Shown: piece by piece, positions 6,277 through 33,270 of the stretch
Layout: every line of letters begins with the position of its first letter
How positions within the stretch are numbered: position 1 is the stretch's first letter
IMG/VR virus record: IMGVR_UViG_3300021959_000176
Location: 1 to 34,858 of that record
Length of the DNA stretch: 34,858 nt
DNA from: a virus
Strand: one strand, 5' to 3'
Notes under the pieces: model-generated
Told to the model about the DNA's origin: nothing
What the model saw: only the letters and a program-made list of their open reading frames with translations
Database searches by the model: none
Made by a program: the position numbers and the translations under genes

Positions 6277-6305
6277 TTGAATTACACAAAAAAATATATT
6301 ATAAT
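6277..6305 (+). promoter_or_regulatory. sigma70-like promoter for the 6312-uvsX unit
   Basis: TTGAAT (6277-6282), a 17-bp spacer and TATAAT (6300-6305). ATG 6312 begins 6 nt after the -10 box, predicting a leaderless transcript. Confidence 0.85.
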
Positions 6306-11963: not shown

Positions 11964-11988
11964 TTTACCAGTTTACGTACATTAAATA
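11960..11988 (+). promoter_or_regulatory. possible promoter of the DHH phosphoesterase gene
   Basis: TTGATT (11960-11965), a 17-bp spacer and TAAATA (11983-11988), ending 9 nt before ATG 11998. The -10 element also resembles the late core, so the class is uncertain. Confidence 0.4.
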
Positions 11989-13171: not shown

Positions 13172-13186
13172 CAAATATACTATAAT
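13158..13186 (+). promoter_or_regulatory. sigma70-like promoter of the gp32 operon
   Basis: TTGAAA (13158-13163), a 17-bp spacer and TATAAT (13181-13186). ATG 13193 follows after 6 nt, so the mRNA should be leaderless. The spacer shares the block AACTAACAA with the primase promoter. Confidence 0.88.
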
Positions 13187-18204: not shown

Positions 18205-18401
18205 GAGATCAATTTAAATACAATGACAAAGTTGAGCCTAGGATAATCAACTCCCCCTATGATGGTACACCTGTTAAACCAAAGTTAATAATTAAAACGT
18301 TGAATGGTGTACAAATAACAGAGGCTCACTGGCATTGTCCGACTACCGGAAGGTTCATCCGCAAAGGAACCGTTGAAATAAAAAAAATTGACAGAAACTA
18401 A
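18201..18401 (+). CDS. small unknown protein, 66 aa
   Basis: This short basic protein has a compact core ITEAHWHCPTTGRFIRKGTVEIKK that looks folded and conserved, but I know no family for it. It begins in an ATGA overlap with the FEN nuclease gene and closes the gp32 operon. Its 3' end carries the -35 box of the primase promoter. Confidence 0.6.
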   Translation: MRDQFKYNDKVEPRIINSPYDGTPVKPKLIIKTLNGVQITEAHWHCPTTGRFIRKGTVEIKKIDRN

Positions 18402-18416
18402 CAATTATAGTATAAT
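18388..18416 (+). promoter_or_regulatory. sigma70-like promoter of the primase gene
   Basis: Consensus TTGACA (18388-18393), a 17-bp spacer and consensus TATAAT (18411-18416), with ATG 18423 after 6 nt. It is the best match of the set and again predicts a leaderless mRNA. The -35 box lies inside the previous gene. Confidence 0.92.
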
Positions 18417-19918: not shown

Positions 19919-19926
19919 TATTTATA
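19919..19926 (-). promoter_or_regulatory. late promoter (TATAAATA) for the 19472-19909 gene
   Basis: A perfect T4-late-type octamer on the - strand, ending 9 nt before the ATG; the predicted leader is about 4 nt. It lies back-to-back with the + strand late core at 19933-19940. Confidence 0.75.
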
Positions 19927-19932
19927 CCTAGA

Positions 19933-19940
19933 CATAAATA
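19933..19940 (+). promoter_or_regulatory. late promoter core (CATAAATA) for the 19948 gene
   Basis: The core ends 7 nt before ATG 19948, predicting a leader of about 2 nt. It is only 6 bp from the opposing late promoter, so both cannot be fully occupied at once. Confidence 0.65.
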
Positions 19941-19947
19941 TATTAAG

Positions 19948-20343
19948 ATGGAACCTTCAGAAAAAAGCGAAACAACAAAAGAAAACTTAGTTTTTGAGGA
20001 CTTAGTACAATATGCGAATGATTATACGTACGGAGCAACCAGCTCTGGTCGTAACCCCGGTTCAAACAAACTAACGGTGATGGACTTATTGAGGATCAAC
20101 ACAGATGATGATGGTAACGCCCCTAACGTACTACCCCATCAAATGAGTACATTTGTAGATAATCTAGGAGATGTATACATCAAAATAATTGAAGTTCAAC
20201 AAATGGTTGCTCAAGCGTACAAGTCTAATTTAACTAAAAATTCTAAACAAATAAAACAGGGTCTAGTTGAAATTAATAAAAATTTACAGCAACAAAAAAA
20301 GCTTATCAAAAAATGTGGTAAATTGGTAGATAAGTTGACTTGA
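19948..20343 (+). CDS. unknown late protein, 131 aa
   Basis: No family recognised. The N-terminal half has a hydrophilic start and a segment VMDLLRINTDDDGNAPN. The C-terminal half is predicted helical and rich in Lys and Gln, ending KKLIKKCGKLVDKL, likely a coiled coil. It has its own late-type promoter and lies in the virion half, so a structural or assembly role is likely but unproven. Confidence 0.7.
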   Translation: MEPSEKSETTKENLVFEDLVQYANDYTYGATSSGRNPGSNKLTVMDLLRINTDDDGNAPNVLPHQMSTFVDNLGDVYIKIIEVQQMVAQAYKSNLTKNSKQIKQGLVEINKNLQQQKKLIKKCGKLVDKLT

Positions 20344-20354
20344 TATATATTTTC

Positions 20355-20362
20355 AATAAATA
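20355..20362 (+). promoter_or_regulatory. late promoter core (AATAAATA) for the 20368 operon
   Basis: The TAAATA core ends exactly 5 nt before the GTG at 20368, so the predicted start of transcription is the start codon. Confidence 0.7.
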
Positions 20363-20367
20363 TTGAT

Positions 20368-20826
20368 GTGTTTGAAATTGTAAAATCATTAACTATACTT
20401 GTATTTGTATCTGGTTCTGTAGCCGGTATCAGTTACACATTTTTAAATGCCTCGTTCCCTGGTATTTTTTTACTAGCTACGGTTGTACAGTTAGTACTGA
20501 GCTGGTTCCTTAAGACATATATAACACATACACAAAAAAGAGCATATATCGACCGACAATCTCAAATGTTATCTCAAATAGAGCAAGAAGCTACAGAAGC
20601 GCCTTGCGCGTACTGTGGATATACAAACTTAATACCAATCTCTCCGGAAGAATCAAATGATTTTGAATGTACAGAATGTGGTGAACATAATAGTGTATAT
20701 GTGAACATAACAGTCGCGCAGAAGACAATACCAATTGATTCACAACCATATGAAGTGACAAACTTTAATGAAAATTTACAATCTGCAAAAGAAAAATTAA
20801 ATGGACGCGCCAAAAAGTCAAGTTAG
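20368..20826 (+). CDS. membrane-anchored zinc-ribbon protein
   Basis: The 152-residue protein starts with two hydrophobic helices (about residues 6-27 and 30-48), so it should sit in the host inner membrane as a hairpin. A charged helix follows, then a zinc ribbon with CAYC (C80, C83) and CTEC (C101, C104), then a polar tail. The GTG start is set by the late promoter geometry. A membrane hairpin plus cytoplasmic zinc ribbon is not a usual T4 structural part; roles in prohead docking, lysis timing or membrane remodelling are guesses. It overlaps the next gene by 26 nt. Confidence 0.72.
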   Translation: MFEIVKSLTILVFVSGSVAGISYTFLNASFPGIFLLATVVQLVLSWFLKTYITHTQKRAYIDRQSQMLSQIEQEATEAPCAYCGYTNLIPISPEESNDFECTECGEHNSVYVNITVAQKTIPIDSQPYEVTNFNENLQSAKEKLNGRAKKSS

Positions 20827-21223
20827 CAAACAGACGAACGAGATCCCTCCTAGTAAATTCAATCCTAGTAGGGACCAAGAACAAATTATAGACATGCAGA
20901 ACATTGGGCGTAATAACAATAAATTCTGGGAACAACAAAGTGTATCTCTACATAAATGCTACAAACAAGGACAAGCATTCGCTAACAACAGTACAAAAAA
21001 GACCGCTATAGACCTGTTACAGGACATGTTTATATTACTAAAGCAGCAGTACAAAGACAATAGTGAACATCAACAACATTTTGAGACTATATTTACACAA
21101 ATAAACTCCAATCTGCAGTTGATTGATGACATGGGTAATAGTGTTGACAAAAACTGTATTCTATCTATAATACAAGGTTATACCCTAGGGTGTTTACAAC
21201 GATATGAAAAAGACTCCAATTGA
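20801..21223 (+). CDS. unknown helical protein, 140 aa
   Basis: No recognised family. The protein is hydrophilic and rich in Gln/Asn/Lys, with mainly helical segments such as AIDLLQDMFILLKQQYKDN and two internal cysteines near the C terminus. It overlaps the membrane zinc-ribbon gene at its start and the next gene at its end, so it belongs to the same late transcript. Nothing in the sequence fixes a function. Confidence 0.62.
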   Translation: MDAPKSQVSKQTNEIPPSKFNPSRDQEQIIDMQNIGRNNNKFWEQQSVSLHKCYKQGQAFANNSTKKTAIDLLQDMFILLKQQYKDNSEHQQHFETIFTQINSNLQLIDDMGNSVDKNCILSIIQGYTLGCLQRYEKDSN

Positions 21224-21470
21224 TCAATTAGAATATACAAACAAACGTGGTGAGCATATTAAAATGTCACAAGATGAAATAGCCAGATGGTGTTGCTTGA
21301 TTGAAGCGGTGGATATAATAGACAAGAAGGGCAAACAAATGAATGTAGACATGGTTAAAAATAATTGGGTCAAGCCTATCGCAATACAGAAATATATTGA
21401 TGAGAGATATGATACTATGAATGAAGAGATTGACCATGAAAAGCAAAATCTTCCAATAAACATCACTTAA
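21204..21470 (+). CDS. unknown small protein, 88 aa
   Basis: No recognised family. It has a charged, helical sequence with EIARWCCLIEAVDIIDKKGK in the centre and a VKNNWVKPIAIQKYIDERYD segment that looks like a small helical bundle. It overlaps the previous gene by 20 nt and is followed after 3 nt by the next gene; no Shine-Dalgarno sequence is seen. Confidence 0.6.
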   Translation: MKKTPIDQLEYTNKRGEHIKMSQDEIARWCCLIEAVDIIDKKGKQMNVDMVKNNWVKPIAIQKYIDERYDTMNEEIDHEKQNLPINIT

Positions 21471-21473
21471 GCT

Positions 21474-21875
21474 ATGTTATACATTGTAGGTACTGAGATT
21501 TCTACTAAAAATACCTTTGACCCTAGGTTTCCTAACAAAAAAACTAAACCAGCCACATGGTTACCAGCCGATTTGAACTGGACACTGGGTAGAATATCAC
21601 AAACCCCAGGGGCAAATACTATTGACTATATGTTTTACTGCTCTGACAACCCTCAGCGAACACATACAACAACATTTGAAAGTTGTGAAGTTGCAGACAT
21701 AGCCATTTCTACAGCTAGAGGAGAGCAAATTGTCGATACTGACGATAGAGACCGGAAAGAAGTTAATACACAAGAGAAGTTCAGTCAGGTGTCAGATCAA
21801 TTGAATAGAAGACAATCTCCAAATTCTAGACGTGGTGGCCGACCCGGTAATTTAGGTCGCCGGCTTGGTCGTTAG
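21474..21875 (+). CDS. unknown late protein with Arg/Gly-rich tail, 133 aa
   Basis: The first 80 residues look folded and beta-rich (MLYIVGTEIS, WTLGRISQTPGANTIDYMFYCS). The C-terminal 50 residues are polar and end in an Arg/Gly cluster (RRGGRPGNLGRRLGR) typical of nucleic-acid or acidic-partner contacts. I know no family. It is the last gene of the + strand late operon, and its stop overlaps by 4 nt the stop of the - strand gp14-like gene. Confidence 0.65.
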   Translation: MLYIVGTEISTKNTFDPRFPNKKTKPATWLPADLNWTLGRISQTPGANTIDYMFYCSDNPQRTHTTTFESCEVADIAISTARGEQIVDTDDRDRKEVNTQEKFSQVSDQLNRRQSPNSRRGGRPGNLGRRLGR

Positions 21876-22660
21876 TAATAATCACCGTAAACTGCATCAC
21901 CACCACCATAGTCACCGTAGTCAAAAATCTCTTTTGGTCTTATCGTTGACCAGGTTTCATCCGATTGTAAGTAAGGATCATATATAGAATCCTCATCTAC
22001 TTGTGTACTACCACCTTCAGGGGTTACATTCTGCTCGAAGCTAAAATCAAAACGTTTGGCTTTGAGTAACCATATGTAATGACCCATTAACGGGTTAATT
22101 TTTTGTATATCTTGGTCCAATCGCTCTGTTATTTCATATACACTCCCCGTTCTAGGGAACACACGATCATTACCATATTCAGATAAGCGAAATATATCAC
22201 CGGCTTTAGGTTCAATCTTACCTTGTTTAGCATCACCTTGACCCCCTAGTTTATTATAGAAATCTTGTATATGTATGTAAGCAGTAACTTCATCATCACT
22301 ATTGATACCGAACTGACTCAATGTCAATGCATTTTCATTCAACTCTATATACATTATCATTCTAATCTCATTACTAAATGTTTGAGATGAATCTTCACCG
22401 TATAACGGATCATATGTTGCTAAATCTTCATTAGAACTCTGGTACAATATTTCAGTACCAAACTGACAAATCTGCTCTTGAAACCATCTACTATAATTGC
22501 CACGTTCATTATTATTTTTTGATTTGTCTGTAAACCGAGGACAACCATTATTGAATTTGAAAACGTTATCTAATGGTACTACACCATCCGTCAGTTCATG
22601 ACACTCTGGTTTCTTGGTCACAAATGACCCATTACAAAACTCCTCCGGGTAATTATTCAT
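21872..22660 (-). CDS. 14: gp14-like neck protein
   Basis: The 262-residue protein (T4 gp14 is 256) shows the order of features I associate with T4-like gp14. These are QICQFGTEILYQ, the DPLYGED turn, a medium acidic strand pair IRMIMYIELNE, LSQFGINSDDEV, PKAGDIFRLSEYG, VYEITERL and GHYIWLLKAKRFDFS. The tail (about 235-262) is Gly/Tyr/Asp-rich. The neck protein joins the filled head to the tail. Its ATG overlaps the stop of the upstream gene by 4 nt, and it is the third gene of the terminase transcript. The assignment is by pattern, without an alignment score. Confidence 0.7.
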   Translation of the reverse strand: MNNYPEEFCNGSFVTKKPECHELTDGVVPLDNVFKFNNGCPRFTDKSKNNNERGNYSRWFQEQICQFGTEILYQSSNEDLATYDPLYGEDSSQTFSNEIRMIMYIELNENALTLSQFGINSDDEVTAYIHIQDFYNKLGGQGDAKQGKIEPKAGDIFRLSEYGNDRVFPRTGSVYEITERLDQDIQKINPLMGHYIWLLKAKRFDFSFEQNVTPEGGSTQVDEDSIYDPYLQSDETWSTIRPKEIFDYGDYGGGDAVYGDYY

Positions 22661-23013
22661 TTCTCTAATACGAAATTGTTTGCTATATCATCCCACCTAA
22701 CAACAATACCTGTGGTGCCCAGTTGTCGCGGCTCTGTTTTAGATAAATTTTCAATGTTATATTCATCTCTTATATAACCCAAATCGTTATCCGAAACAAC
22801 GACCGGAGTAGAACTACCATGCGGAATGTTTCTGAGACGCTCAATTTTAGGATTCAAAGTAGGGTCTACCCTATCACGATCCGGTACTAAATTCTGACTT
22901 CCTTGTCTCCACGGTGTGGCTCCCATCCTAGCAGATTGCTGTCGGGTGGTAGTTTTACCTGCCACTTGTTTAGCCGTATTGAAATAGCCTTCAAATAATT
23001 TATCAAACTTCAC
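22657..23013 (-). CDS. unknown packaging/neck-cluster protein, GTG start
   Basis: This roughly 118-residue protein lies between the terminase and gp14. A longer frame could begin at an ATG at 23034, but a perfect late promoter TATAAATA lies inside that extension and ends exactly 5 nt before the GTG at 23013. I therefore take the GTG, giving MKFDKLFEGYF as N terminus. The rest is polar, with a WRQGSQNLVPDRDRVDP segment and a C-terminal beta-like GIVVRWDDIANNFVLE. Position suggests a head-closure or neck role; I cannot match it to gp13 or gp16. Confidence 0.68.
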   Translation of the reverse strand: MKFDKLFEGYFNTAKQVAGKTTTRQQSARMGATPWRQGSQNLVPDRDRVDPTLNPKIERLRNIPHGSSTPVVVSDNDLGYIRDEYNIENLSKTEPRQLGTTGIVVRWDDIANNFVLEK

Positions 23014-23018
23014 AACAT

Positions 23019-23026
23019 TATTTATA
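23019..23026 (-). promoter_or_regulatory. late promoter (TATAAATA) for the 22657-23013 gene
   Basis: A perfect octamer on the - strand, ending exactly 5 nt before the GTG at 23013; the transcript would be leaderless. It sits in the 17-nt gap after the terminase stop, so the downstream genes can be made independently of the terminase. Confidence 0.8.
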
Positions 23027-23030
23027 CATA

Positions 23031-24716
23031 TCAATAGAGACTAGACCATCCTTGCTGTTCCATTTCAGAAATTTCTGATTCTAGATAGCTATTTTGCCCG
23101 AATAACATGGGACTCGCATCAACAGAATCACCAGTTTTCTGATTGGAATACATACCTAGCGGGTTTATAAATTCTTTAACACCATAGTCTAGCTCTCTTA
23201 ACACTAAAGGCCGTTCATTGTCATCATATTGCTCCACTTCGAAGTACTTATCTACTACAGTACTTTCTAAAACAATTAGACTCCATATCAAACTCATCAC
23301 TCGGTCATCATAATAATTACCCCCTCTAGCCTTCCAAGTACCATTTGAATACCGGACAAAGTTTTTAAGTTCATGAACTAAAGCTTTATCATAAATATTG
23401 ACACACTTCAATTGTGTTAACCAATACCTCATGTTTACTACACCTTTAAATTTGGTATTGGTGTGAGCAACAACACCTAATCGCTCTGCAGTTCTTCCTT
23501 TGATTGTAGGAGCAAAACTAATTAAATTTCTGTAACCAAATTCATTAGCTAAATTATCAACCACTTGCGCGCCACAATTGTTACGCTCTATAGCTGCTAA
23601 AGGACTACCCCAATGTTGCAATATCTCGTACAATTTTTTTGTAAACATATAGGGACTTATACTATTGCTGTTGTATGATGCCACTTGCTTGATGTTACTT
23701 AAATGGGTTATGTCTAATATTTGTATACAACTAGCATCTAAGTTTACACCTTCGCTGACATCAACCCCAGCAACGTATATGTTATCCGGATTGGGCTCTT
23801 CCCATAGCAAATACTTACCATCATCAAATATAAACTCCGGTTCATGACAAGTATTTTTCATCCGCTCATGTAACTCGTCATCGATAGTACTCTCCCCAGT
23901 TTGTAAAAATTGACAGCCAAACTCTTGGTCAAAAGCTTCTTGACTACCCATATTCGATATTTGTTCCTGCTTCCAATCCTCATCTCTACCAGGAACCTCC
24001 CACCAGTCGATCCTACCAAACTCCCACCCATTTGTTTTGTTTTGCGCTCCAGTGTAAAGCTTATGAAATAGGTTCTCAGTCCCGTTAGGTGTACTACTAA
24101 TGAAAATTTTACTCTTCTTGAAACTACTGATGATCGGATATACACTCTTCCAAAATTCTTCAACTAAATGATTGTCAATGAACGCTAACTCATCTAAAAT
24201 TAGTACGTTACAGCTCTGCCCTCGAGCAGCAGTACCTGTTGTGGTACTGATACCAATTGTGGTACCATTGCCTAGTGTCATGCTCGTTTTACCGTATTCT
24301 GTAACACCGGGTTTCAACCAGTTAGGAAGCTCTTCATAAGCCATCCGGACACGTTTGAAAATCTCAATAGCGGTACCCTCTTTGTTGGCTACAATCAATA
24401 TACGCTGATCGTCATTGAAACACGCGTTCCATAATGCATATACAGTCATCAATGTAGTTTTACCCACCTGTCTACTGGCTAGTAATATGAAAAATCTATT
24501 GTCTCTCATCTGCCGGATCACCTTTTTCTGATAGCTATGCAATTTGATTGAATGTCTCCCCTTCTCGCTAATTATAAAAAAGAAATTCTCAGCAAAATGT
24601 AAGATGTTCTTTTTACTCTTCCGGAGATCGGACAGCATTTTGGGTGTCCACTCGAATTCTGCTTCTGGGGTAGGTAAATTTTGATTACCTAGATAATATT
24701 GTGATTTTTTATTCAA
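23031..24716 (-). CDS. 17: large terminase subunit (gp17-like)
   Basis: The packaging motor protein has about 561 residues from the TTG start (T4 gp17 is 610). The ATPase has SRQVGKTTL (Walker A, K86 from this start), NVLILDELAFI (Walker B) and a coupling motif around ISSTPNGTEN. The nuclease domain carries VAGVDVSEG, AAIERNN and a late DDRVMSLI aspartate pair. A longer frame runs to 24812, but it crosses the late promoter TATAAATA at 24725-24732, and its extra 32 residues include CHTVIYACGG, which looks non-coding. TTG 24716 lies 3 nt after the predicted transcription start. It cuts and translocates genome concatemers into proheads. Confidence 0.93.
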   Translation of the reverse strand: MNKKSQYYLGNQNLPTPEAEFEWTPKMLSDLRKSKKNILHFAENFFFIISEKGRHSIKLHSYQKKVIRQMRDNRFFILLASRQVGKTTLMTVYALWNACFNDDQRILIVANKEGTAIEIFKRVRMAYEELPNWLKPGVTEYGKTSMTLGNGTTIGISTTTGTAARGQSCNVLILDELAFIDNHLVEEFWKSVYPIISSFKKSKIFISSTPNGTENLFHKLYTGAQNKTNGWEFGRIDWWEVPGRDEDWKQEQISNMGSQEAFDQEFGCQFLQTGESTIDDELHERMKNTCHEPEFIFDDGKYLLWEEPNPDNIYVAGVDVSEGVNLDASCIQILDITHLSNIKQVASYNSNSISPYMFTKKLYEILQHWGSPLAAIERNNCGAQVVDNLANEFGYRNLISFAPTIKGRTAERLGVVAHTNTKFKGVVNMRYWLTQLKCVNIYDKALVHELKNFVRYSNGTWKARGGNYYDDRVMSLIWSLIVLESTVVDKYFEVEQYDDNERPLVLRELDYGVKEFINPLGMYSNQKTGDSVDASPMLFGQNSYLESEISEMEQQGWSSLY

Positions 24717-24724
24717 ACTATCAG

Positions 24725-24732
24725 TATTTATA
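24725..24732 (-). promoter_or_regulatory. late promoter (TATAAATA) for the terminase
   Basis: A perfect octamer on the - strand. The predicted start of transcription is 24719, 3 nt before the TTG start. It is divergent from the + strand late core at 24743-24750, 10 bp away. Confidence 0.8.
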
Positions 24733-24742
24733 CCACCACATG

Positions 24743-24750
24743 CATAAATA
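24743..24750 (+). promoter_or_regulatory. late promoter core (CATAAATA) for the acidic 24756 gene
   Basis: The core ends exactly 5 nt before ATG 24756, predicting a leaderless mRNA. Confidence 0.72.
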
Positions 24751-24755
24751 ACAGT

Positions 24756-25595
24756 ATGACACGTGTAAACACTTTGAACGAGATAGCGGATATTTATTTC
24801 AGCAATAACCAATTACTAGCAGAGAAAGCTGATAATACAGTCGGTAAACATTCTGCCGGTAGCGAGATTGAGGATGAAAAGAAAGCTTCTAAAAAACCAG
24901 CCAAAGGTACTGGACCAGAATCTGCCGAAAACTACGACAGTAAAGTAAATGAAGCCGGTGGTACTGGAGCAAGAGATGAAAAAAATCAATACTCAGCCGG
25001 GAAAACTGCTAACGAGAGTATAAATAAACAAGACATGAGCAAGAAAAAAAGTATTTTTGATAAACTATATGAAGACGTCCTAGGTGGCGACGACGATGAT
25101 TTAGAAATGGGCGGTGGCTTCGATGCGTTCGGTGATGATGAAGGTATGGAAGATGATGAAATGGGAGGCGGTGATGAAGTAACATTGACGCTACCAAGAG
25201 ATATCGCAGAAAAATTACACGAAGTTCTTATGGGTCAACTCGAAGGTGGTGACGATGATATTGAAGATATCGAAGACACAGAAGATATGGATGAGCTTGA
25301 CGAATATAGCCATGATGACGAAGAAGACGATGAAGTGATGCAAGAAGCACCAGATGCTCAAGAGATTGGCCATGCAATTGTCTCTGATATAGATCGTGGT
25401 AACCTCAAAGGTAAGAGCAACAAAGTTGGTGGATCCGGACCAGCCGCAAAGAGTGGAAGTGGTGATGGTGACGGTAAGCTCAAAGGAGGTAACCCGGAAC
25501 CAACTGATCTAGGAGATCATTCTGGTGCATTAACCGGTAAGAACAACAAGGTATCTGGAAAAGTCCGCGGCAAAGGCCAAGAGCTATTCGATTGA
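24756..25595 (+). CDS. highly acidic late protein, probable prohead-core or internal head protein
   Basis: The 279-residue protein has an N-terminal leader ending LLAE at residue 23, which fits the T4 prohead protease rule (L/I)xE. A Lys/Ala/Gly-rich stretch follows, then a very acidic Asp/Glu/Gly/Met block (about 105-205) interrupted by one folded-looking segment VTLTLPRDIAEKLHEVLMGQ. The Gly/Lys/Asn-rich C terminus has two similar GKxNKVxG motifs. Acidic, repetitive, protease-susceptible proteins are typical of T4 prohead cores (gp67, gp22). It is monocistronic, with its own late promoter and a strong terminator. The role is inferred. Confidence 0.75.
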   Translation: MTRVNTLNEIADIYFSNNQLLAEKADNTVGKHSAGSEIEDEKKASKKPAKGTGPESAENYDSKVNEAGGTGARDEKNQYSAGKTANESINKQDMSKKKSIFDKLYEDVLGGDDDDLEMGGGFDAFGDDEGMEDDEMGGGDEVTLTLPRDIAEKLHEVLMGQLEGGDDDIEDIEDTEDMDELDEYSHDDEEDDEVMQEAPDAQEIGHAIVSDIDRGNLKGKSNKVGGSGPAAKSGSGDGDGKLKGGNPEPTDLGDHSGALTGKNNKVSGKVRGKGQELFD

Positions 25596-25625
25596 TAACA
25601 ATTTAACCAAAACCAAACACAATCA

Positions 25626-25648
25626 AACCACCCACGGGTGGTTTTTTT
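25626..25648 (+). terminator. rho-independent terminator after the acidic head-type gene
   Basis: An 8-bp perfect inverted repeat (AACCACCC / GGGTGGTT) with a very short loop is followed by a run of T to 25648. It lies 30 nt after the stop at 25595. Confidence 0.85.
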
Positions 25649-25670
25649 GTGGCAATATAATAAGCCAATC

Positions 25671-25678
25671 GTAAATTA
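25671..25678 (+). promoter_or_regulatory. weak late-promoter-like element for the GT42-like gene
   Basis: GTAAATTA lies 5 nt before ATG 25684, in the right place but with a degenerate core. A TATAAT at 25656-25661 without a matching -35 box is the alternative. Confidence 0.3.
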
Positions 25679-25683
25679 TTACG

Positions 25684-26592
25684 ATGAATGCCGGTACGTA
25701 TTATAGTGAAGCTATGCAAGACTACACAAACCCACAGGATTTTGTGATGCATTGTAAAGATGATACACAACCAGTTGCTGTTGTAGGCAATGGCGGTAGC
25801 TTGGAGACGTTAACTGATACCCAAATAGATTTGATAAATCAGTCACGACTGTTCCGATGCAACTGGGCGTTTCAAGACCCGGGCAAGATAAAAAAACAAT
25901 ACGCTATATACTTTTCACAAGCTTATGCTGGCTCACTAGAAAAAGATTTAAAAAATAAGGTAGACAGCGCTGTCGCCAGCAATAATATATACATATATAG
26001 ATACATAATACACGTATTATACAATCACAACCCGATGTGCTCATTAATATCCAGCGATGGCGTCGCAGTATGGCCTACAAGTGGCATACAGATGCTGTTG
26101 CAAGCTGCATTCATGATTAGACCTCCAAAATTATACATTGCTGGTATAGATATGTACACACACAAAAGAAAAAAATTACATTTATCCGGTCAAGAGACAT
26201 TAGATTATTTGAAACAGCATGGTAAAAAATTCAGTGACAGTCCAGCTATTAGTGCTGGTATTGGTTTTGGAAAGGATAACATGACGTTGGTCAATCCAGA
26301 ATATTTTTCAAATGTAATAATTGATAAAAAATTTACATATCATAATATAGAAAGTGACATGTTGTTAGTGTTCAATGCATTCGCTCAATGTATATTGAAC
26401 AAAACACAGGTTGAAATATTTCAATGTGATATTTTATCAAAAATATATGAATTGACAAAATCCAACATGAGTATAGTTACAAATTATTTTGAACAAGGTC
26501 ATGACCCGTTGAACAATATTTCAAAGAAAAAAAGTTCGTACAACATGTGGAGATTGATACACCATGCTAAGAAGTCTGTACTACCAGACTAA
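25684..26592 (+). CDS. sialyltransferase-like glycosyltransferase (GT42/CstII-like fold)
   Basis: The 302-residue protein carries the ordered motifs of bacterial GT42 sialyltransferases such as CstI/CstII. VVGNGGSL (35-39 core) matches GNGPSL, LFRCN (F57-N60) matches FRCN, and PTSGIQMLLQAAF (131-143) matches the ITSG helix. LYIAGIDMY (to 158) matches YLSGIDFY. H220 with D225 reproduces the H-x4-D spacing around the catalytic His. An N-terminal extension of about 30 residues and a C-terminal helical extension (about 230-302) are extra. It would use a CMP-activated sugar if the family assignment holds. It lies among late tail genes, just after a terminator; its stop codon forms part of the next late promoter. 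Confidence 0.72.
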   Translation: MNAGTYYSEAMQDYTNPQDFVMHCKDDTQPVAVVGNGGSLETLTDTQIDLINQSRLFRCNWAFQDPGKIKKQYAIYFSQAYAGSLEKDLKNKVDSAVASNNIYIYRYIIHVLYNHNPMCSLISSDGVAVWPTSGIQMLLQAAFMIRPPKLYIAGIDMYTHKRKKLHLSGQETLDYLKQHGKKFSDSPAISAGIGFGKDNMTLVNPEYFSNVIIDKKFTYHNIESDMLLVFNAFAQCILNKTQVEIFQCDILSKIYELTKSNMSIVTNYFEQGHDPLNNISKKKSSYNMWRLIHHAKKSVLPD

Positions 26593-26595
26593 ATA
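26588..26595 (+). promoter_or_regulatory. late promoter core (ACTAAATA) for the 26601 gene
   Basis: It ends exactly 5 nt before ATG 26601. The TAA inside it is the stop codon of the preceding gene. Confidence 0.78.
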
Positions 26596-26600
26596 GTTTA

Positions 26601-27176
26601 ATGGCGGAGCTCAAAAAAGAAGTAAGACAATCATATTTAAACAAAGCCCGGACTGACAAATTCCGAATAGTTGTTCCATTACCATCAGTGTTGAGGAACA
26701 AAGACACGAGAATAGTTCGAAGTAAAGATTTTGTAGATAAAGACTCTATAAATTTTAGTATTTTCGCTATCAACATACCCACGATCGCTGTCGAACCGGT
26801 CGATTTGAAGTTTGGTGGCCAAACCCCACGTATAAGCTCGCTAGCCAGAGCCCCATTCGATCCGGTGGAAGTCAAATTTGTGATAGACAACATGTATGCT
26901 AATTACTGGTTATTATATTCATGGTTGAATCTCATGCATGATGAAGAATCCGGTCACATGATCAAAGCAAAAGGGTCGAGTCAGCCTTTAGATCAATATG
27001 TTACTGATATAAAAGTTTCTGGGATTGATGAATATAATGAAAATGTAATTGAATATACATTCACCCGGTGTGTACCACAGTCTATAGGTGGTATAAACTA
27101 CAATTATCAAGAAACAAACGAAATAGAAAGCAGCTTTCAATTTAGATTTCACCAATTAAAAATTAAAATTGTCTGA
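26601..27176 (+). CDS. tail-tube-fold protein upstream of the sheath
   Basis: The 191-residue protein has the architecture of T4 gp19/gp54-type tube proteins. KFRIVVPLPS is the first strand, INFSIFAINIPTIAVEPV contains the characteristic inner-strand pattern, and PVEVKFVIDNMYANYWLLYSWLN is the helix segment. VTDIKVSGIDEYN...IEYTFTRCVPQSIGGINYN leads into the final strands. It lies just before the sheath and has its own leaderless late promoter. It could be a tail terminator, a second tube-like protein or a baseplate part; the fold is more certain than the role. Confidence 0.68.
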   Translation: MAELKKEVRQSYLNKARTDKFRIVVPLPSVLRNKDTRIVRSKDFVDKDSINFSIFAINIPTIAVEPVDLKFGGQTPRISSLARAPFDPVEVKFVIDNMYANYWLLYSWLNLMHDEESGHMIKAKGSSQPLDQYVTDIKVSGIDEYNENVIEYTFTRCVPQSIGGINYNYQETNEIESSFQFRFHQLKIKIV

Positions 27177-27203
27177 TATCTAGAAAAAATTGAGCATGAT
27201 GCG

Positions 27204-27211
27204 ACTAAATA
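27204..27211 (+). promoter_or_regulatory. late promoter core (ACTAAATA) of the sheath gene
   Basis: The core is 20 nt before ATG 27232. The predicted start of transcription at about 27217 gives a leader of about 15 nt, in contrast to the leaderless late genes. Confidence 0.75.
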
Positions 27212-27217
27212 CTTAGG

Positions 27218-27222
27218 AAGGA
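27218..27222 (+). promoter_or_regulatory. Shine-Dalgarno sequence of the sheath gene
   Basis: AAGGA within a purine-rich stretch, 9 nt before ATG 27232, close to the predicted 5' end of the mRNA. Confidence 0.7.
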
Positions 27223-27231
27223 AAATTTATT

Positions 27232-29886
27232 ATGGCAAGAACAATTCAATCCCCCGGTGTAGAAATTAATGAGATAGATCTGAGTTCACGTACAGTGTTC
27301 CCAATTGGCACAAACGTGCACATACAAGGCTTTTCAGCCAACGGACCTACTGATGAAACGTTGACAGTAAGTACATTCTCAGAATTCGAGACAATATATG
27401 GAGCTCCAACCAATGCAGCTGAAAGATATTTTTATCACACAGTCAAATCCGCATTCAACAGCCCCGCGAACATACTGGTAACGAGATTACCATATGGTAA
27501 CAAGAAAGGTGAAGGCTTCACAGATGAGCTTTACAGTGCCCTTGTGCTACCAGTGAGTGGAGACGATCACATTGCTGAGCCACTGACCGGTAGTTACTTA
27601 ACTGACAGGGTAGCATCCGAAACACCTGATGGTGACGGTTCCGGAACAACCAAATTGGGTAGTGTTTCTGACAGCACACAATTGCAATTCGGTGTACCTA
27701 TCAGAGTTGACCTGCTCCCAGAAGAATACCAAGCAATCAAAAACGGTGAGATTTCATTTGAAGAGAACTGCCTGGTACCATTCACCACCGCCGGAGTGAT
27801 TGACTATACAGACACTATATTCACCGGAAATGCAGATACCGATGCGGCAAATGCATGTAAGTTTGACGATTTACCAGCGTATGATCCAGGTGATGGTAGT
27901 GTTGACGCGACAAATTACGACGCTGATGGAAAACGGAAGTTATCCGCTTTTGTCAAACGCGCCAAATACTCCGGTATGTTGTTAGTGAACAAAGCACAAA
28001 CAACAATCAACACATATTTTGAAGGTTATTATCTCGCATTTGGTGACAACATGCAGTTCGCTATCAACGATGGCACGGACAATGAGACCAACTTTTATGA
28101 TGCACTAGATGGTTTGAAAACATTTGGAGAAGCTGGTACGTATTTTGATACCCCATCAGCGCGACTCAATTTCAAAACCACTGCACATACAGTCACTGGT
28201 GCTCAAGGTAGTATAAGTGAAGTGTTTGAAAACATCCCTAGTTTTGATATAGCCAATGATGAAAACAGAGACGTTATTGGACTTGGTGTGTTCAAGTTGA
28301 GAAAAAGTATATATGCTACTGACACAACCATGTTAGACTTCGGTCTAGATGAGAGTCATGTAGGTAGTATGGATGCTTACAAACAAACAGCTAACATCAA
28401 CGGTGGTAAACCCAAAAGCTTTTACATCGAAACGGTTGATGCTAACAGCGCGCTGCTCACAGTGTTCGCGAACAAGAACATTTCCGAATTAGCCGGAACA
28501 TTCTTGACAGACACTGAGAATCCATCAGTTCCAAACACCACAATCTCATTTCACCCAGAAGCGCAACGATATGCTTGGGCCACCGGTAGTTACCAAGAAG
28601 AGGTTCCTGCTAGTTCCAAGAAAAGTATCGGTAGCATAGTAGAGAAGATCGAGAGAAACTTCGAGAAACTCGCCAATCTTGATGAGTGGGACATTGACAT
28701 CACTCTAGATGCTGGTTTGAGTACAATCAACACGTATGTACAGTACATACAAGAGAAAGAGAAGTACAAAGTTTTAGAAGATTGGATGAGTTCTGACCCA
28801 AGCAGTCTCGGAACAGATTATGCTAGTATCGCCAACAGTTTAGGTACGAGCATTTATGCTGCTACGGAGGCTAGTGACCCACGAGTGAGTGGCCTAACCT
28901 ATCCAGAAGACAACACCATCAATGTCGCGTTTGATGATGAACTGATTGTTGATACGAGCGGTTTATTCTCTAGCGAAGTGAAAGATAGTACCGGGAATGC
29001 CGCGGAGTGGGTAGGCTTACAAGGTGGCACCACATGGTCCGGGCAAACAGTTGTTAATTCATGGAAAGCCGTCGCGAATTCATTCATAATATTTGCACAA
29101 GACCGGAGAAAGGATCATATAACAATACTTGACCCATTACGTCACATATTTGTACAAGGTAGAAACGGTGTAGCCATGAAGGACACCACAAAGAACTTCA
29201 GTCAACACGTGTTTTACCCGTTGAAACACCTGTTAGGCACTGTCAATACCAATTATGCAGCATGTTATGGTAACTGGTTGAAACAGTATGATTCATTAAC
29301 CGACAAGAATGTCTGGATGCCACCAAGTGGTGTGATATCAGCATCATATGCTACAAATGATTCAGTGTATCAACCATGGTTTGCACCAGCCGGTTTCACA
29401 AGAGGCTTGATCACCAACGCGCTTGAGGTGGCAATACGTCCAAATCAAAAGCAACGTGACCAGTTTTATAAAATTGGCTTGAATCCAATCGCATATTTCC
29501 CCGGAGATGGTTATGTTATATTTGGTCAAAAGACCTTACAAGCTAAACCTAGTGCTTTCGACAGGATAAACGTCCGCAGGATGTTCTTATACTTAGAAAA
29601 AGCCGTCCGGAAAACAATTAAATACTTCGTGTTTGAACCAAACACATTCAGTACAAGGCAGAACATACTGGCGGTGCTCACACCCATATTCCAACGGGTA
29701 AAGAGTACGCAAGGTTGTTATGACTACCTGATAGTATGTGACGAGCGGAACAATCCACCAGTGGTGATTGATAGCAACGAATTAGTTGTTGATATATACA
29801 TTAAACCAGTAAGAGCAGCCGAGTTCATCTTGGTCAACTTCTACGCAACCAGAACTGACCAAAACTTTGGTGAGTTGATTGGATAA
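27232..29886 (+). CDS. 18: contractile tail sheath protein (gp18-like), enlarged
   Basis: The N terminus ARTIQSPGVEINEIDLS and FSANGPTDETLTVSTFSEFETIYG are typical of myovirus sheaths. The C terminus is also typical: FEPNTFSTRQNI, then YLIVCDERNNPP and VDIYIKPVRAAEFILVNFYATRTD. At 884 residues it is much longer than T4 gp18 (659); the extra length lies in the middle (roughly residues 110-560), where surface domains usually sit. The sheath contracts to drive the tube through the envelope. The gene is visibly richer in G+C than the replication genes and has a real leader with a Shine-Dalgarno sequence, consistent with very high expression. Confidence 0.94.
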   Translation: MARTIQSPGVEINEIDLSSRTVFPIGTNVHIQGFSANGPTDETLTVSTFSEFETIYGAPTNAAERYFYHTVKSAFNSPANILVTRLPYGNKKGEGFTDELYSALVLPVSGDDHIAEPLTGSYLTDRVASETPDGDGSGTTKLGSVSDSTQLQFGVPIRVDLLPEEYQAIKNGEISFEENCLVPFTTAGVIDYTDTIFTGNADTDAANACKFDDLPAYDPGDGSVDATNYDADGKRKLSAFVKRAKYSGMLLVNKAQTTINTYFEGYYLAFGDNMQFAINDGTDNETNFYDALDGLKTFGEAGTYFDTPSARLNFKTTAHTVTGAQGSISEVFENIPSFDIANDENRDVIGLGVFKLRKSIYATDTTMLDFGLDESHVGSMDAYKQTANINGGKPKSFYIETVDANSALLTVFANKNISELAGTFLTDTENPSVPNTTISFHPEAQRYAWATGSYQEEVPASSKKSIGSIVEKIERNFEKLANLDEWDIDITLDAGLSTINTYVQYIQEKEKYKVLEDWMSSDPSSLGTDYASIANSLGTSIYAATEASDPRVSGLTYPEDNTINVAFDDELIVDTSGLFSSEVKDSTGNAAEWVGLQGGTTWSGQTVVNSWKAVANSFIIFAQDRRKDHITILDPLRHIFVQGRNGVAMKDTTKNFSQHVFYPLKHLLGTVNTNYAACYGNWLKQYDSLTDKNVWMPPSGVISASYATNDSVYQPWFAPAGFTRGLITNALEVAIRPNQKQRDQFYKIGLNPIAYFPGDGYVIFGQKTLQAKPSAFDRINVRRMFLYLEKAVRKTIKYFVFEPNTFSTRQNILAVLTPIFQRVKSTQGCYDYLIVCDERNNPPVVIDSNELVVDIYIKPVRAAEFILVNFYATRTDQNFGELIG

Positions 29887-29897
29887 GGGGCCGCTAG

Positions 29898-29905
29898 ACT
29901 AAATA
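29898..29905 (+). promoter_or_regulatory. late promoter core (ACTAAATA) of the tube gene
   Basis: Its predicted start of transcription at about 29911 gives a 14-nt leader that begins with the Shine-Dalgarno sequence. Confidence 0.75.
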
Positions 29906-29910
29906 ATTTT

Positions 29911-29915
29911 AGGAG
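29911..29915 (+). promoter_or_regulatory. Shine-Dalgarno sequence of the tube gene
   Basis: AGGAG, 9 nt before ATG 29925, at the very 5' end of the predicted mRNA. Confidence 0.75.
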
Positions 29916-29924
29916 AAAAAAGAT

Positions 29925-30587
29925 ATGGCAGATATAACAGATTATGATATTGAACACTTTTACGACAACTTAATTGTACGTGAAGTCGCTAGACAGCATC
30001 AATTCCGCGTAACCAGTATTAGTACAGGTTTCGGTCAGGACGTACCGGAAGGTATAAATGACTTGGAAAACAAGCTTCTAGTAGAGAGCACAACCCTTCC
30101 GTCCCGGAACATCAACAATGTAAGTTTGAATTTTCACGGGGTGGACTTCAATTTACCAGGAAACGCTAAGTATAGTGGTAGTGATGCATGGCCAGTGACT
30201 TTCCGACTTGATCAACAATTGAACATTCGTCGTATATTCGAGGACTGGACCACAGCAGTATTTGACGACCGGACTACCGCAGGTAGTATCGTTCGTAGTA
30301 ATGATGCTTATTTGGTAATAAGTTTGTTTGACCAGATGGGAGCTTCTCATGACCAATATGTGTTATGGGGTGTGTATCCAACAGAGGTCGGATCACTCGA
30401 TTATAATGTAGGAACCGACGGAGACGTTGTCACATGTCAGGTAACACTAGCATATCACTACTGGAGTCGTCAAGGTACGAACGCATTTAACAATCGTGCG
30501 ATTGTTGCTGACCCATCCGATGGTGGTGGAGTTCAAAACTCCGCTAGCACGTTCGGTGGTAGTGCAAATGCAGAAACCGGCCTGTAA
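29925..30587 (+). CDS. 19: tail tube protein (gp19-like)
   Basis: The 220-residue protein (T4 gp19 is 163) lies directly after the sheath, as in T4. Typical tube features are HQFRVTSIST, ESTTLPSRNINNVSLNFHGVDFNLPG, WPVTFRLDQQLNIRRIFEDW, and YVLWGVYPTEVGSLDYN, which matches the T4 segment around TNVGEL. It ends in VTCQVTLAYHYWS. Subunits stack as hexameric rings to form the inner tail channel. The last 35 residues are a Gly/Ser/Asn-rich tail not found in T4. The gene has a Shine-Dalgarno leader and is followed by a strong terminator. Confidence 0.88.
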   Translation: MADITDYDIEHFYDNLIVREVARQHQFRVTSISTGFGQDVPEGINDLENKLLVESTTLPSRNINNVSLNFHGVDFNLPGNAKYSGSDAWPVTFRLDQQLNIRRIFEDWTTAVFDDRTTAGSIVRSNDAYLVISLFDQMGASHDQYVLWGVYPTEVGSLDYNVGTDGDVVTCQVTLAYHYWSRQGTNAFNNRAIVADPSDGGGVQNSASTFGGSANAETGL

Positions 30588-30609
30588 ACCGTATCAATAT
30601 TCTCAAAAA

Positions 30610-30638
30610 AACCGTGCAGCAATGCACGGTTTTTTTTT
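30610..30638 (+). terminator. strong rho-independent terminator after the tube gene
   Basis: A 9-bp perfect stem (AACCGTGCA / TGCACGGTT) with loop GCAA is followed by a T run. An A run (30605-30611) precedes the stem, so it could also act on - strand transcripts. Confidence 0.92.
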
Positions 30639-30660
30639 GTTTTGATAATTGAAGTGGTTG

Positions 30661-30668
30661 ATTAAATA
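30661..30668 (+). promoter_or_regulatory. late promoter core (ATTAAATA) for the 30674 gene
   Basis: It ends exactly 5 nt before the GTG at 30674; the mRNA would be leaderless. Confidence 0.75.
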
Positions 30669-30673
30669 ATTAT

Positions 30674-31513
30674 GTGACTGATCATGTAAAATTCCCACAA
30701 CGTTACAGTACTGGTATAAGTCAGGGCCAACAACGGTTTGACGAGTTTGAAAGACTGTTATTACATAACTGGAGCACGGTGTTGGCCAACCCAACAATGT
30801 GGTTCATTGCATATAGTCATATACCTCATGGAATCCGTGGGTTGGATAGAGACAACATATTAAATAAAGAAGGTCCAAATCAATACGCGCAGTTGAACAG
30901 TAACCAACATAACATAATAAATGCCATGACAAACAGCCGCGGCTGCATGCTGGCACATAGTGTAGAGACACCCATGATAGCGGTTGATGCCAAACGCGAC
31001 CAACCTAGACTAGGTGGTTACTATGGAGGTCTTGTGTCAGAAATTATTAACGAACAAAATCAATTGATGATTGAATTCCGGGAAACCCATAGTTCAATTT
31101 CAGAATTCATACTGAGACCATGGATAGAAATGGTTGCGAAAAATGGTTTCATAGCTAGACCACCTAGGGATCCTAGAAACGTCAAATGCCGGATATGGAT
31201 GATGCAACTTGGTAAAGTCGGTCCTGGTACAGACCCTATTGAGAGAAAGATATGGCAATTTGTGGATTGCGCACCGGTAGATGTGTCAACTCAGAGATAT
31301 GCACATGACGGAACTTGGAATGCTAGTGATATGTTTTTCACGAGTAACTGGGTGTATTCGCATTACACTGTGTCTGATGTACAATTTGATAACATGAGCG
31401 AGATGTACAAGAAACATGTTGAAAGTTCCGCGATCCGTCCACAACCCGGGCAACGGACAAGTGGTAGGGTAGGTGAAAACGACGGACCTGCCGCAGAAAT
31501 TACAGTTCTTTAA
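30674..31513 (+). CDS. baseplate tail-tube initiator-like protein (gp48/gp54-type)
   Basis: The 279-residue protein has a tube-like core. MIEFRETHSSISEFILRPWIEMVAKNGFI resembles the gp54/gp48 segment where a strand is followed by a helix and R-P-W. VKCRIWMMQLG follows, and IWQFVDCAPVDVSTQRYAHDG leads to SNWVYSHYTVSDVQ. In T4 these proteins cap the baseplate hub and start tube polymerisation. The position after the tube gene and before gp26/gp51-like genes agrees. The GTG start is dictated by the promoter geometry. I cannot separate gp48 from gp54. Confidence 0.68.
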   Translation: MTDHVKFPQRYSTGISQGQQRFDEFERLLLHNWSTVLANPTMWFIAYSHIPHGIRGLDRDNILNKEGPNQYAQLNSNQHNIINAMTNSRGCMLAHSVETPMIAVDAKRDQPRLGGYYGGLVSEIINEQNQLMIEFRETHSSISEFILRPWIEMVAKNGFIARPPRDPRNVKCRIWMMQLGKVGPGTDPIERKIWQFVDCAPVDVSTQRYAHDGTWNASDMFFTSNWVYSHYTVSDVQFDNMSEMYKKHVESSAIRPQPGQRTSGRVGENDGPAAEITVL

Positions 31514-31535
31514 TAGTTGCGAAAAGTAACATCAT

Positions 31536-31543
31536 TGTAAATA
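31536..31543 (+). promoter_or_regulatory. late promoter core (TGTAAATA) for the 31549 gene
   Basis: It ends exactly 5 nt before ATG 31549. Confidence 0.75.
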
Positions 31544-31548
31544 CTTGA

Positions 31549-32406
31549 ATGGAATGGACTGTAACAGCACCTGTTATATCACATGAAAAGAACTACCGGT
31601 TTCATCCAATAACCAACAGACATCATGAGATAATCATAAAATACTGCATGGGTAAGGATGATGGTGGGTTAGTGATGTACCTCAAAGATATGTTGAAACA
31701 GTTGGTAGTGGATGACGTAGATATAGAATCAATCCCGGCATTGGATCAACTGTTTTTGTTAATACGTTTGAGATCTCTATGCATAGGTACTCGACTAGAT
31801 GTTATTTTAGAGTCTGAAAATAAATCAAAACATAGAATATCATTGATTGATATACAAAAGAGTATAAACGAGTATTATATTCAACCCACCACGATAAGTG
31901 ACAGTACCGGCACCGTACAAATACATATACATTACACTAGCAGCTGGACGTCCCATGATTTAATAGATTACATACAGGAAGTTACTATAGATGACACACC
32001 GGTCAAATTCAAACAATTGTCATCAGAACAGCAAAAAGAACTGGTAGAACATTTAGATACTAATCATACTAGAGAAGTAGAAGATTTTATAACCAAACTT
32101 GAAAATAGTATAACGAAAATGGTGTTTGTACAGATACCAGGTGAGGAGGACAATATTACAATGGCATCTGATCAATTCACTCACATATTACGTATTGTAT
32201 ACTCAGACACTCTCAACAATTTTGTAGAATTGATGTATGTATTTGTTAAAATTTTAAATTTTACCCTCTCAGATGTAATGAATCTCACACCTAGTGACAC
32301 ACAAATGTACTATCAGATGTTTGTAAAGGAAACAGCCGAGAGAGAAAAGGCACAGAAACAATCACAGGCACAAAACAGTAGTAGAAGTGTATCTTCAAGA
32401 GGTTAA
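31549..32406 (+). CDS. baseplate hub assembly protein (gp26/gp51-like)
   Basis: The 285-residue protein resembles the T4 baseplate family that includes gp26 and gp51. There is an early LDQLFLLIRLRSLCIGTRLDV segment, like the T4 KVFTSSIGTK strand-helix region. KFKQLSSEQQKELVEHL follows, then a C-terminal SDVMNLTPSDTQMYYQMFVKE similar to the gp26 ending around SIMDMIPVERN. The last 20 residues are Gln/Ser-rich and disordered. Members act as chaperones or parts of the central hub. The next gene looks like a related copy. Confidence 0.62.
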   Translation: MEWTVTAPVISHEKNYRFHPITNRHHEIIIKYCMGKDDGGLVMYLKDMLKQLVVDDVDIESIPALDQLFLLIRLRSLCIGTRLDVILESENKSKHRISLIDIQKSINEYYIQPTTISDSTGTVQIHIHYTSSWTSHDLIDYIQEVTIDDTPVKFKQLSSEQQKELVEHLDTNHTREVEDFITKLENSITKMVFVQIPGEEDNITMASDQFTHILRIVYSDTLNNFVELMYVFVKILNFTLSDVMNLTPSDTQMYYQMFVKETAEREKAQKQSQAQNSSRSVSSRG

Positions 32407-32427
32407 TGTTGAATAATCTATATACAG

Positions 32428-32435
32428 AGTAAATA
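32428..32435 (+). promoter_or_regulatory. late promoter core (AGTAAATA) for the 32441 gene
   Basis: It ends exactly 5 nt before ATG 32441. Confidence 0.75.
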
Positions 32436-32440
32436 ATATC

Positions 32441-33253
32441 ATGAGTAACCCGGAACAGTTTAACCAACTATTACAAAATTTAAAACAAAAGAATGAATCC
32501 AGAACGCTTAACATCTGGATACCTTCGTTGAAAAGAGGTGTAGAATTCAAACATCTTACCCTCAATCAACAGAAAAAACTAATACAAAGCTCGATCCGGG
32601 AAAATTTACTCAAACTGGATTTCAGCCGGAATATCTATCAAATATTAGTTGATAACCTCATGGATACTCAAGTTGATGTTGATAAGCTCAACGTTGTAGA
32701 TATGATCAGCATAGGATTATCCTACCGCGCGACAGATATTAGCAGTGACTACGGTTTTTATCTAGATGATGTACTGTATCCGATTGACTTGAACGATACA
32801 TGCAAGCAAGCACGAACAATCGACTATGGAAACATGTTTGAACCGGAGGTAATTGTTGCAGATAATTATCACGTAACAGTACAGGTACCATATATAAAGA
32901 CTGACAAACTAATGAATGATAATCTATTTGAGAAGTATAAAGACATTCCAGATGAAGCAGAAGAACTGAAAGATATTCTATCTGATGTTTATATACATGA
33001 AGCATGCAAGTATATCACACATATTGATGTAACATCCGATGGTGACGATCCTAATAACCCACCACTAGAAGTAGACTTTACGCAATTGACAGCCGCACAG
33101 AGGCTGGAAATAATAGATCAGATACCATTAACAGTACTAAATCGACTAGTTTCAGTATCTGACAAGGTACAAGAGATCGAATCTAAACTTCTAGATGTTG
33201 ATTTAAACGGTGAACCGGCTACCATTGTATTGAATTCTGCGTTCTTTACTTAA
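32441..33253 (+). CDS. second baseplate hub assembly-like protein (gp26/gp51-like)
   Basis: The 270-residue protein opens with TLNIWIPSLKRGVEFKHLTLNQQKKLIQS, typical of T4 gp26/gp51-like baseplate proteins in marine phages. VDMISIGLSYRATDIS, a beta-rich middle with YHVTVQVPYIKTD, an acidic insert and a C-terminal LTAAQRLEIIDQIPLTVLNRLVSV follow. The last motif parallels KFKQLSSEQQKELVEHL in the preceding protein, so the two may be divergent relatives. Each has its own leaderless late promoter. A hub assembly role is inferred from family and position. Confidence 0.62.
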   Translation: MSNPEQFNQLLQNLKQKNESRTLNIWIPSLKRGVEFKHLTLNQQKKLIQSSIRENLLKLDFSRNIYQILVDNLMDTQVDVDKLNVVDMISIGLSYRATDISSDYGFYLDDVLYPIDLNDTCKQARTIDYGNMFEPEVIVADNYHVTVQVPYIKTDKLMNDNLFEKYKDIPDEAEELKDILSDVYIHEACKYITHIDVTSDGDDPNNPPLEVDFTQLTAAQRLEIIDQIPLTVLNRLVSVSDKVQEIESKLLDVDLNGEPATIVLNSAFFT

Positions 33254-33262
33254 ACGTCTGGG

Positions 33263-33270
33263 CATAAATA
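33263..33270 (+). promoter_or_regulatory. late promoter core (CATAAATA) for the 33283 gene
   Basis: It ends 12 nt before ATG 33283, predicting a leader of about 7 nt. Confidence 0.6.

Follow-up and report, generated by a model that had tools for sequence, protein, structure and literature searches.

The window analysed here, meaning the whole stretch of DNA under study, is a fragment, 34,858 bases long, from the genome of an uncultivated T4-like phage (virus record IMGVR_UViG_3300021959_000176). It carries genes for gp46, gp43, UvsX, gp41, gp32, a primase, TerL, the sheath, the tube and baseplate proteins; gene calls were our own simple ORF calls, and some gene names are based on sequence reading and synteny. 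When 50,697 phage records were compared, the TerL of the window showed no more than about 37% identity to that of any isolate or phage record. Identity was 59-64% to the TerL proteins of a group of uncultivated relatives and 47-48% to that of the relative G008. For comparison, ten relatives of 31-185 kb were used, together with nine further genomes that were isolates or named comparators. As G001 and G007 were near-duplicates, G001 alone of that pair was pooled and G007 was left out, and all pooled counts below refer to ten genomes, that is, nine relatives and the window. One relative of the TerL, at 48% identity, was also found in a contig of a Verrucomicrobiota metagenome-assembled genome (MAG). 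Because just one of 388 genomes of this phylum has a TerL relative, the link possibly reflects co-binning, and we set it aside as a pointer to the host; that MAG showed no Shine-Dalgarno (SD) enrichment (8%), and the TAAATA signal described below was absent from it and from its GC-rich phage contig.

Thirteen TAAATA sites were found upstream of genes between 19.9 and 33.3 kb, and two late-type sites lay outside this region, with spacings of 8 nt (8492-8497, minus strand) and 9 nt (11983-11988). These putative late promoter cores are the following:

8492 to 8497, minus strand: late-type core TAAATA, 8 nt before the ATG at 8483 of a solitary leftward gene; overlapping with the sigma70 promoter of 8521
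11983 to 11988, plus strand: late-type core TAAATA, 9 nt before the ATG of 11998-12891
19919 to 19924, minus strand: late promoter core (TATAAATA at 19919-19926), 9 nt before the ATG at 19909; predicted 4-nt leader
19935 to 19940, plus strand: late promoter core TAAATA, 7 nt before the ATG of 19948-20343; divergent from 19919
20357 to 20362, plus strand: late promoter core TAAATA, 5 nt before the GTG of 20368-20826
23019 to 23024, minus strand: late promoter core (TATAAATA at 23019-23026), 5 nt before the GTG at 23013 of ORF 22657-23013
24725 to 24730, minus strand: late promoter core (TATAAATA at 24725-24732), with TerL 8 nt downstream at a probable TTG start (24716); divergent from 24745
24745 to 24750, plus strand: late promoter core TAAATA, 5 nt before the ATG of 24756-25595
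26590 to 26595, plus strand: late promoter core TAAATA, 5 nt before the ATG of 26601-27176 (tail-tube-like, phrog_45)
27206 to 27211, plus strand: late promoter core TAAATA, 20 nt before the sheath ATG (27232); SD-like GGAAGG in the leader
29900 to 29905, plus strand: late promoter core TAAATA, 19 nt before the tail tube ATG (29925); SD-like AGGAG in the leader
30663 to 30668, plus strand: late promoter core TAAATA, 5 nt before the GTG of 30674-31513
31538 to 31543, plus strand: late promoter core TAAATA, 5 nt before the ATG of 31549-32406 (baseplate hub, phrog_150)
32430 to 32435, plus strand: late promoter core TAAATA, 5 nt before the ATG of 32441-33253
33265 to 33270, plus strand: late promoter core TAAATA, 12 nt before the ATG of the open-ended ORF 33283

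A preliminary description of the window, made from the sequence alone, had claimed that seven TAAATA cores end exactly 5 nt before ATG or GTG, and all seven were confirmed as exact (starts 20368, 24756, 26601, 30674, 31549 and 32441 on the plus strand and 23013 on the minus strand). As a general headline, "exactly 5 nt" held only in part, since it applies to seven of the 13 sites of the region and the other six have spacings of 7 (19948+), 8 (24716-), 9 (19909-), 12 (33283+), 19 (29925+) and 20 nt (27232+); the 5-nt spacing is the main mode here, not a rule. The description also placed a T4-late-like octamer before nearly every first cistron; gene 25684 has no TAAATA upstream. The six sites with other spacings predict leaders of 2-15 nt, the two longest of which bear SD-like sequences. 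In 2,000 cyclic shifts, a mean of 0.35 and a maximum of 3 starts in the window had TAAATA at 5 nt, compared with the seven observed, and the overall frequency of the hexamer was at chance (50 sites vs 56 expected); the signal in the window is positional, not compositional. The number of full octamers TATAAATA says little (nine occurrences in the window vs 4.7 expected). The statement that the full octamer appears only at 19919, 23019 and 24725 on the minus strand held among promoter candidates, the other copies lying elsewhere, mostly in coding sequence.

Orthologue starts keep the promoter spacing at about 33% protein identity. TAAATA was retained at exactly 5 nt in seven orthologues of 24756-25595 (about 29-35% protein identity) and at 5 nt in five relatives for ORF 22657-23013, and five orthologues of the gene starting at 19909 on the minus strand have TATAAATA at 5 nt. 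For 11998-12891, five of eight orthologues have TAAATA at 5-6 nt. The sheath orthologues have it at 5 nt in G005 and at 6 nt in G001, and the tail tube orthologues of G003, G004, G005 and G008 at 5 nt; as the sheath and tube leaders of the window bear SD-like sequences and several of the orthologues are predicted to be leaderless, genes can apparently switch between the two modes.

The pattern was then evaluated across the clade. Every in-frame start candidate in the first part of each called ORF was scanned, which kept the choice of starts independent of the motif. When every hexamer was counted without preselection at 61 positions upstream of starts in the nine relatives and the window, TAAATA at 5 nt ranked first (202 observed vs 9.6 expected), and TATAAT at 6 nt was among the top-ranked upstream signals (63 vs 6.5 expected). 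Orthologues are common to related genomes, so that pooled counts are not independent events; the peak was present genome by genome, at 6 nt in G001 and G007 and at 5 nt in the other eight relatives. Spacings of 0-4 nt were nearly empty of TAAATA in the relatives (0 sites at 4 nt, 50 at 5 nt and 19 at 6 nt in G005), which show this layout more strongly than the window does. The start codons at the 202 TAAATA sites with 5-nt spacing were ATG in 186 cases, GTG in 16 and TTG in none. At these sites (n = 202) position -12 was A or T in 90% and position -13 in 79%; the core itself was fixed by site selection, and the full TATAAATA was present in only part of the set. Single palindromic TATTTATAAATA sequences were found to serve two head-to-head genes.

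It could be objected that this signal is an artefact of AT-rich composition or of overlap with upstream TAA stop codons, given that the genomes are AT-rich, that the window as a whole has no excess of TAAATA and that an upstream gene ends within 12 nt for 28% of the genes with TAAATA at 5 nt. This objection is all but excluded. Stop-codon and composition artefacts are ruled out by the cyclic-shift control, in which the clade count of 202 compares with a maximum of 22 in 2,000 shifts; divergent genes without an upstream stop also bear TAAATA, and little or no signal at 5 nt was detected in other AT-rich T4-like phages (T4, Mosig and Melnitz).

The second signal corresponds to a sigma70-type class. 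In the window, TATAAT ends 6 nt before five starts (3666, 6312, 8521, 13193 and 18423), in each case with a TTGA -35 box at 17 bp:

3631 to 3659, plus strand: sigma70 promoter TTGACT-N17-TATAAT, 6 nt before the GTG of DNA polymerase (3666)
6277 to 6305, plus strand: sigma70 promoter TTGAAT-N17-TATAAT, 6 nt before the ATG of 6312
8486 to 8514, plus strand: sigma70 promoter TTGAAT-N17-TATAAT, 6 nt before the ATG of a queC-like gene (8521)
13158 to 13186, plus strand: sigma70 promoter TTGAAA-N17-TATAAT, 6 nt before the ATG of the gp32-like SSB (13193)
18388 to 18416, plus strand: sigma70 promoter TTGACA-N17-TATAAT, 6 nt before the ATG of the gp61-like primase (18423)

TATAAT was kept at 6-7 nt in six orthologues of the gp32-like SSB and in seven of the gp61-like primase. 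TTGA at -34 to -36 was present in 44 of 64 genes with TATAAT at 6 nt, compared with three of 202 with TAAATA at 5 nt, a contrast as expected for sigma70 and T4-late promoters. Promoter class was also split by gene function (Fisher p 2.6e-12): virion orthologues had 33 TAAATA and no TATAAT, and replication-side orthologues had 23 TATAAT and five TAAATA, all five belonging to one gene, 11998. The earlier proposal, of T4-late-like promoters with +1 at the start codon and a second class converging on this result, was supported in both parts by the relatives.

Concerning SD use, other genes of the pooled clade had an SD-like sequence at -16 to -4 in 10% of cases, compared with 6-10% in control windows; SD enrichment was not found in the pooled clade, and a few genomes weakly show some. 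By genome, the values were 4-11% in most, and 22% in G001, 22% in G006, 25% in G007 and 17% in G009 (controls 2-13%), so weak SD use remains in these four. The mild excess in the three pooled relatives among them (G001, G006 and G009) is an observation against the main reading given below. In the two putatively leaderless classes, SD-like sequences were present in 3% and 1% of genes. The corresponding share was 57% in T4, 51% in Mosig, 59% in Melnitz, 53% in HTVC008M and 24% in S-RSM4.

An alternative reading takes TAAATA-N5-ATG as a translation-initiation signal, replacing the SD sequence in an SD-poor host, and not as a promoter. The sharp spacing to the start codon, the absence of pooled SD enrichment in the clade and the existence of SD-scarce bacteria (PMC10783764) speak for it. 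We consider it very unlikely, since replication genes have a different motif at a different spacing (TATAAT, 6 nt), together with a -35 box, in the same role; TAAATA in the window also occurs 19-20 nt upstream of starts with an SD in between; a single palindromic TATTTATAAATA serves two head-to-head genes; and the clade encodes gp55.

The promoter reading was examined further by searching for the late-transcription machinery, of which the window itself contains the clamp and, at its left edge, a landmark for gp55:

75 to 392, plus strand: C-terminal end of gp47 (phrog_100, E 7e-4)
14678 to 15418, plus strand: gp45-type sliding clamp (orthologue in G006 matches phrog_223, 1.7e-12)

The AlphaFold model of the clamp (pLDDT 89) matched PCNA structures at 5e-14. 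Homologues of gp55 were detected in six long relatives (G001, G002, G003, G004, G005 and G008; phrog_234, about 1e-18 to 1e-30), so that the absence of a gp55-type sigma factor, which the preliminary description had named as a refutation of late promoters, was not met. The window itself has no gp55 gene. In G005, gp55 lies directly upstream of gp47 (gene order, L135), an adjacency shared with other T4-like phages, and gp55 is therefore expected just to the left of the window, outside the fragment. In several relatives the gp55 gene has a sigma70-type promoter of its own in the leaderless layout. The other homologue proposed for checking, gp33 (phrog_254), was detected in none of the ten clade records, compared with five of five isolates tested; it is a small, diverged protein and the records are partial. 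A conserved 95-aa gene before gp32 (12884-13171) was considered as gp33 and rejected (hhalign probability 0.1, no convincing fold match). According to the T4 review (PMC2988020), gp55 homologues retain a C-terminal clamp-binding segment. No such segment was found in the clade gp55, which has an acidic tail without a hydrophobic motif at its end; the clamp-binding motif is not evident in Mosig gp55 either. With gp33 undetected and gp55 lacking the clamp-binding segment, late activation may differ from that of T4.

The sites resemble the gp55-dependent late promoters of T4 (TATAAATA, PMC2988020) in having a TAAATA core at the -10 position without a -35 box, an AT-rich start region, an association with virion genes, and the presence of gp55 and gp45. 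They differ in that the T4 motif has its peak about 28 nt upstream, with an SD in the leader, whereas that of the clade lies at 5 nt with no predicted leader, and in that gp33 and the gp55 clamp-binding tail were not found in the clade. Cyanophage and Pelagibacter T4-like phages (S-RSM4, HTVC008M, Mosig; Kyanoviridae) share gp55 and TAAATA late sites, but 24-53% of their genes retain an SD. The peak of late cores is about 28 nt from the start in T4 and about 22 nt in S-RSM4. TAAATA exactly 5 nt before starts was found 11 times in HTVC008M and six times in Mosig, and we regard these two as a mixed state, with such sites and otherwise SD use. All nine of these sites in the compared annotated stretch of HTVC008M coincided with annotated CDS starts, mostly of virion genes, including those for the tape measure, DNA end protector, head closure, tube cap and wedge. 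Starts with this spacing in HTVC008M include 16007 and 18916 on the minus strand and 18943 and 31132 on the plus strand. Leaderless mRNAs are known from other phages: lambda cI is mentioned as such (PMC9031893), and phage transcripts are often leaderless according to the AR9 paper (PMC5312081). Thermus P23-45 and phiKZ also have leaderless mRNAs. The likeness is translation from a 5'-terminal start codon, which is predicted for the clade; the difference is that in the clade this layout extends over the entire early and late programmes. None of these mRNAs (lambda cI, P23-45, phiKZ) is known to us to use gp55-type promoters, and no report of leaderless T4-type late mRNA was found in the open-access literature searched, an absence that supports novelty only weakly.

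These analyses establish a sequence pattern that is conserved and divided by gene function, the presence of gp55 in relatives and of the clamp in the window, and the absence of SD enrichment in the pooled clade. Together, the findings very likely (probability about 0.87) represent a T4-type transcription programme that has lost most of its mRNA leaders. The reading of TAAATA sites by gp55-RNA polymerase, the exact +1 and leaderless translation are inferences, the leaderless state being deduced from promoter geometry, as no 5' end has been mapped in any of these phages. According to this model, replication genes would be transcribed from host-type sigma70 promoters (TTGA-N17-TATAAT) and virion genes from gp55-type late promoters, which have a TAAATA core and no -35 box, the timing of expression being itself inferred. 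The distances, 6 nt from TATAAT and 5 nt from TAAATA, would make transcription begin at the start codon. The sigma70 -10 box occupies -12 to -7 and the late box of T4, which begins at -13 (PMC2988020), occupies -13 to -6, so that both would place +1 on the start codon; the preliminary description had argued the same for the late box, and its geometry agrees with that review, +1 remaining an inference. First cistrons would then be translated from leaderless mRNAs without an SD step. Downstream cistrons, mostly without SD too, would probably depend on coupling to the preceding gene or on SD-independent initiation, and a few genes (sheath and tube in the window) would keep a short SD-bearing leader. 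Given spacings of 5-9 nt in the window and peaks at 6 nt in G001 and G007, some leaders of 1-4 nt are expected.

Alternatively, the late promoters could be real but transcripts could begin elsewhere, further downstream or at processed 5' ends, so that the mRNAs are not leaderless or some starts are internal. There are no transcript data, and the spacing shifts by a few nt in the closest relatives of the window, which leaves room for this explanation. It is nevertheless highly improbable, because the difference between 5 and 6 nt fits the known start geometry of T4-late and sigma70 promoters, spacings of 0-4 nt are almost absent and the annotated starts of HTVC008M coincide with the sites.

The leaderless reading thus describes a layout unlike that of T4, with no earlier report for T4-type phages in the open-access literature searched. 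A bolder version remains possible: a widespread aquatic T4-like lineage may have given up leaders and SD initiation almost wholly, so that early genes and gp55-driven late genes alike are expressed from leaderless mRNA, and its late transcription may have been released from the link to the clamp via gp33 and the gp55 tail. Leader control of phage translation is exemplified in textbooks by T4, yet in a related lineage promoter and start codon seem to be fused genome-wide. The mixed state in the cultured Pelagibacter phage HTVC008M makes the idea directly testable. If it is true, knowing a gene start in these viruses could suffice to locate its promoter, and vice versa; one palindromic box could be enough for two late genes placed head to head; and the way a host, possibly an SD-scarce one, translates its mRNAs would prove to reshape the whole promoter layout of its phage.

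In the T4-like genomes compared with the window phage, we identified a motif, GGAAC, located 4-6 nt 5' of a TATAAT-like -10 element that itself precedes the start codon by 5-7 nt. A total of 42 such sites were found, all in genomes G002, G003, G004, G005, G006, G009 and G011. From sequence alone, we infer that this arrangement constitutes a third leaderless promoter type; it might correspond to a middle class, whose activator is unknown.

Promoters were also found in head-to-head arrangements. In G005, and likewise in G003, G004, G006, G009 and G011, there are pairs of divergent late genes whose start codons are separated by 22-23 bp, and the two members of a pair have a single palindromic TATTTATAAATA-like box in common. 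Within the window, the rightward early sigma70 promoter of a queC-like gene (8486-8514) overlaps a leftward late TAAATA core (8492-8497).

Features located in the window and its relatives:
G005 97181, example of a GGAAC-type promoter
G005 119371-/119393+, head-to-head late pair on one TATTTATAAATA-like box
window 12884-13171, gene for a 95-aa protein, directly preceding gp32
L077:5-397 (-) and L110:6463-6855 (+), tmRNA gene copies of G001 and G007 (Rfam RF00023)

The all-helical product encoded before gp32 is conserved across relatives, and no recognisable family or fold was found for it. Near the right end of the window, an array with a 21-nt period (34447-34747), coding for PPSTPTK-like repeats, occupies the last part of the open-ended ORF starting at 33283.

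The closest records to the window, the near-identical T4-like phages G001 and G007, carry a complete tmRNA gene (about 146 bits) with a predicted tag of 27 residues. Another T4-like contig, CAIYYI010000011.1 (stretches L222/L245; TerL identity 48%), was assigned by binning to a Verrucomicrobiota MAG; the genes of the MAG itself showed no SD enrichment. This MAG is a lead to the host, albeit a weak one.
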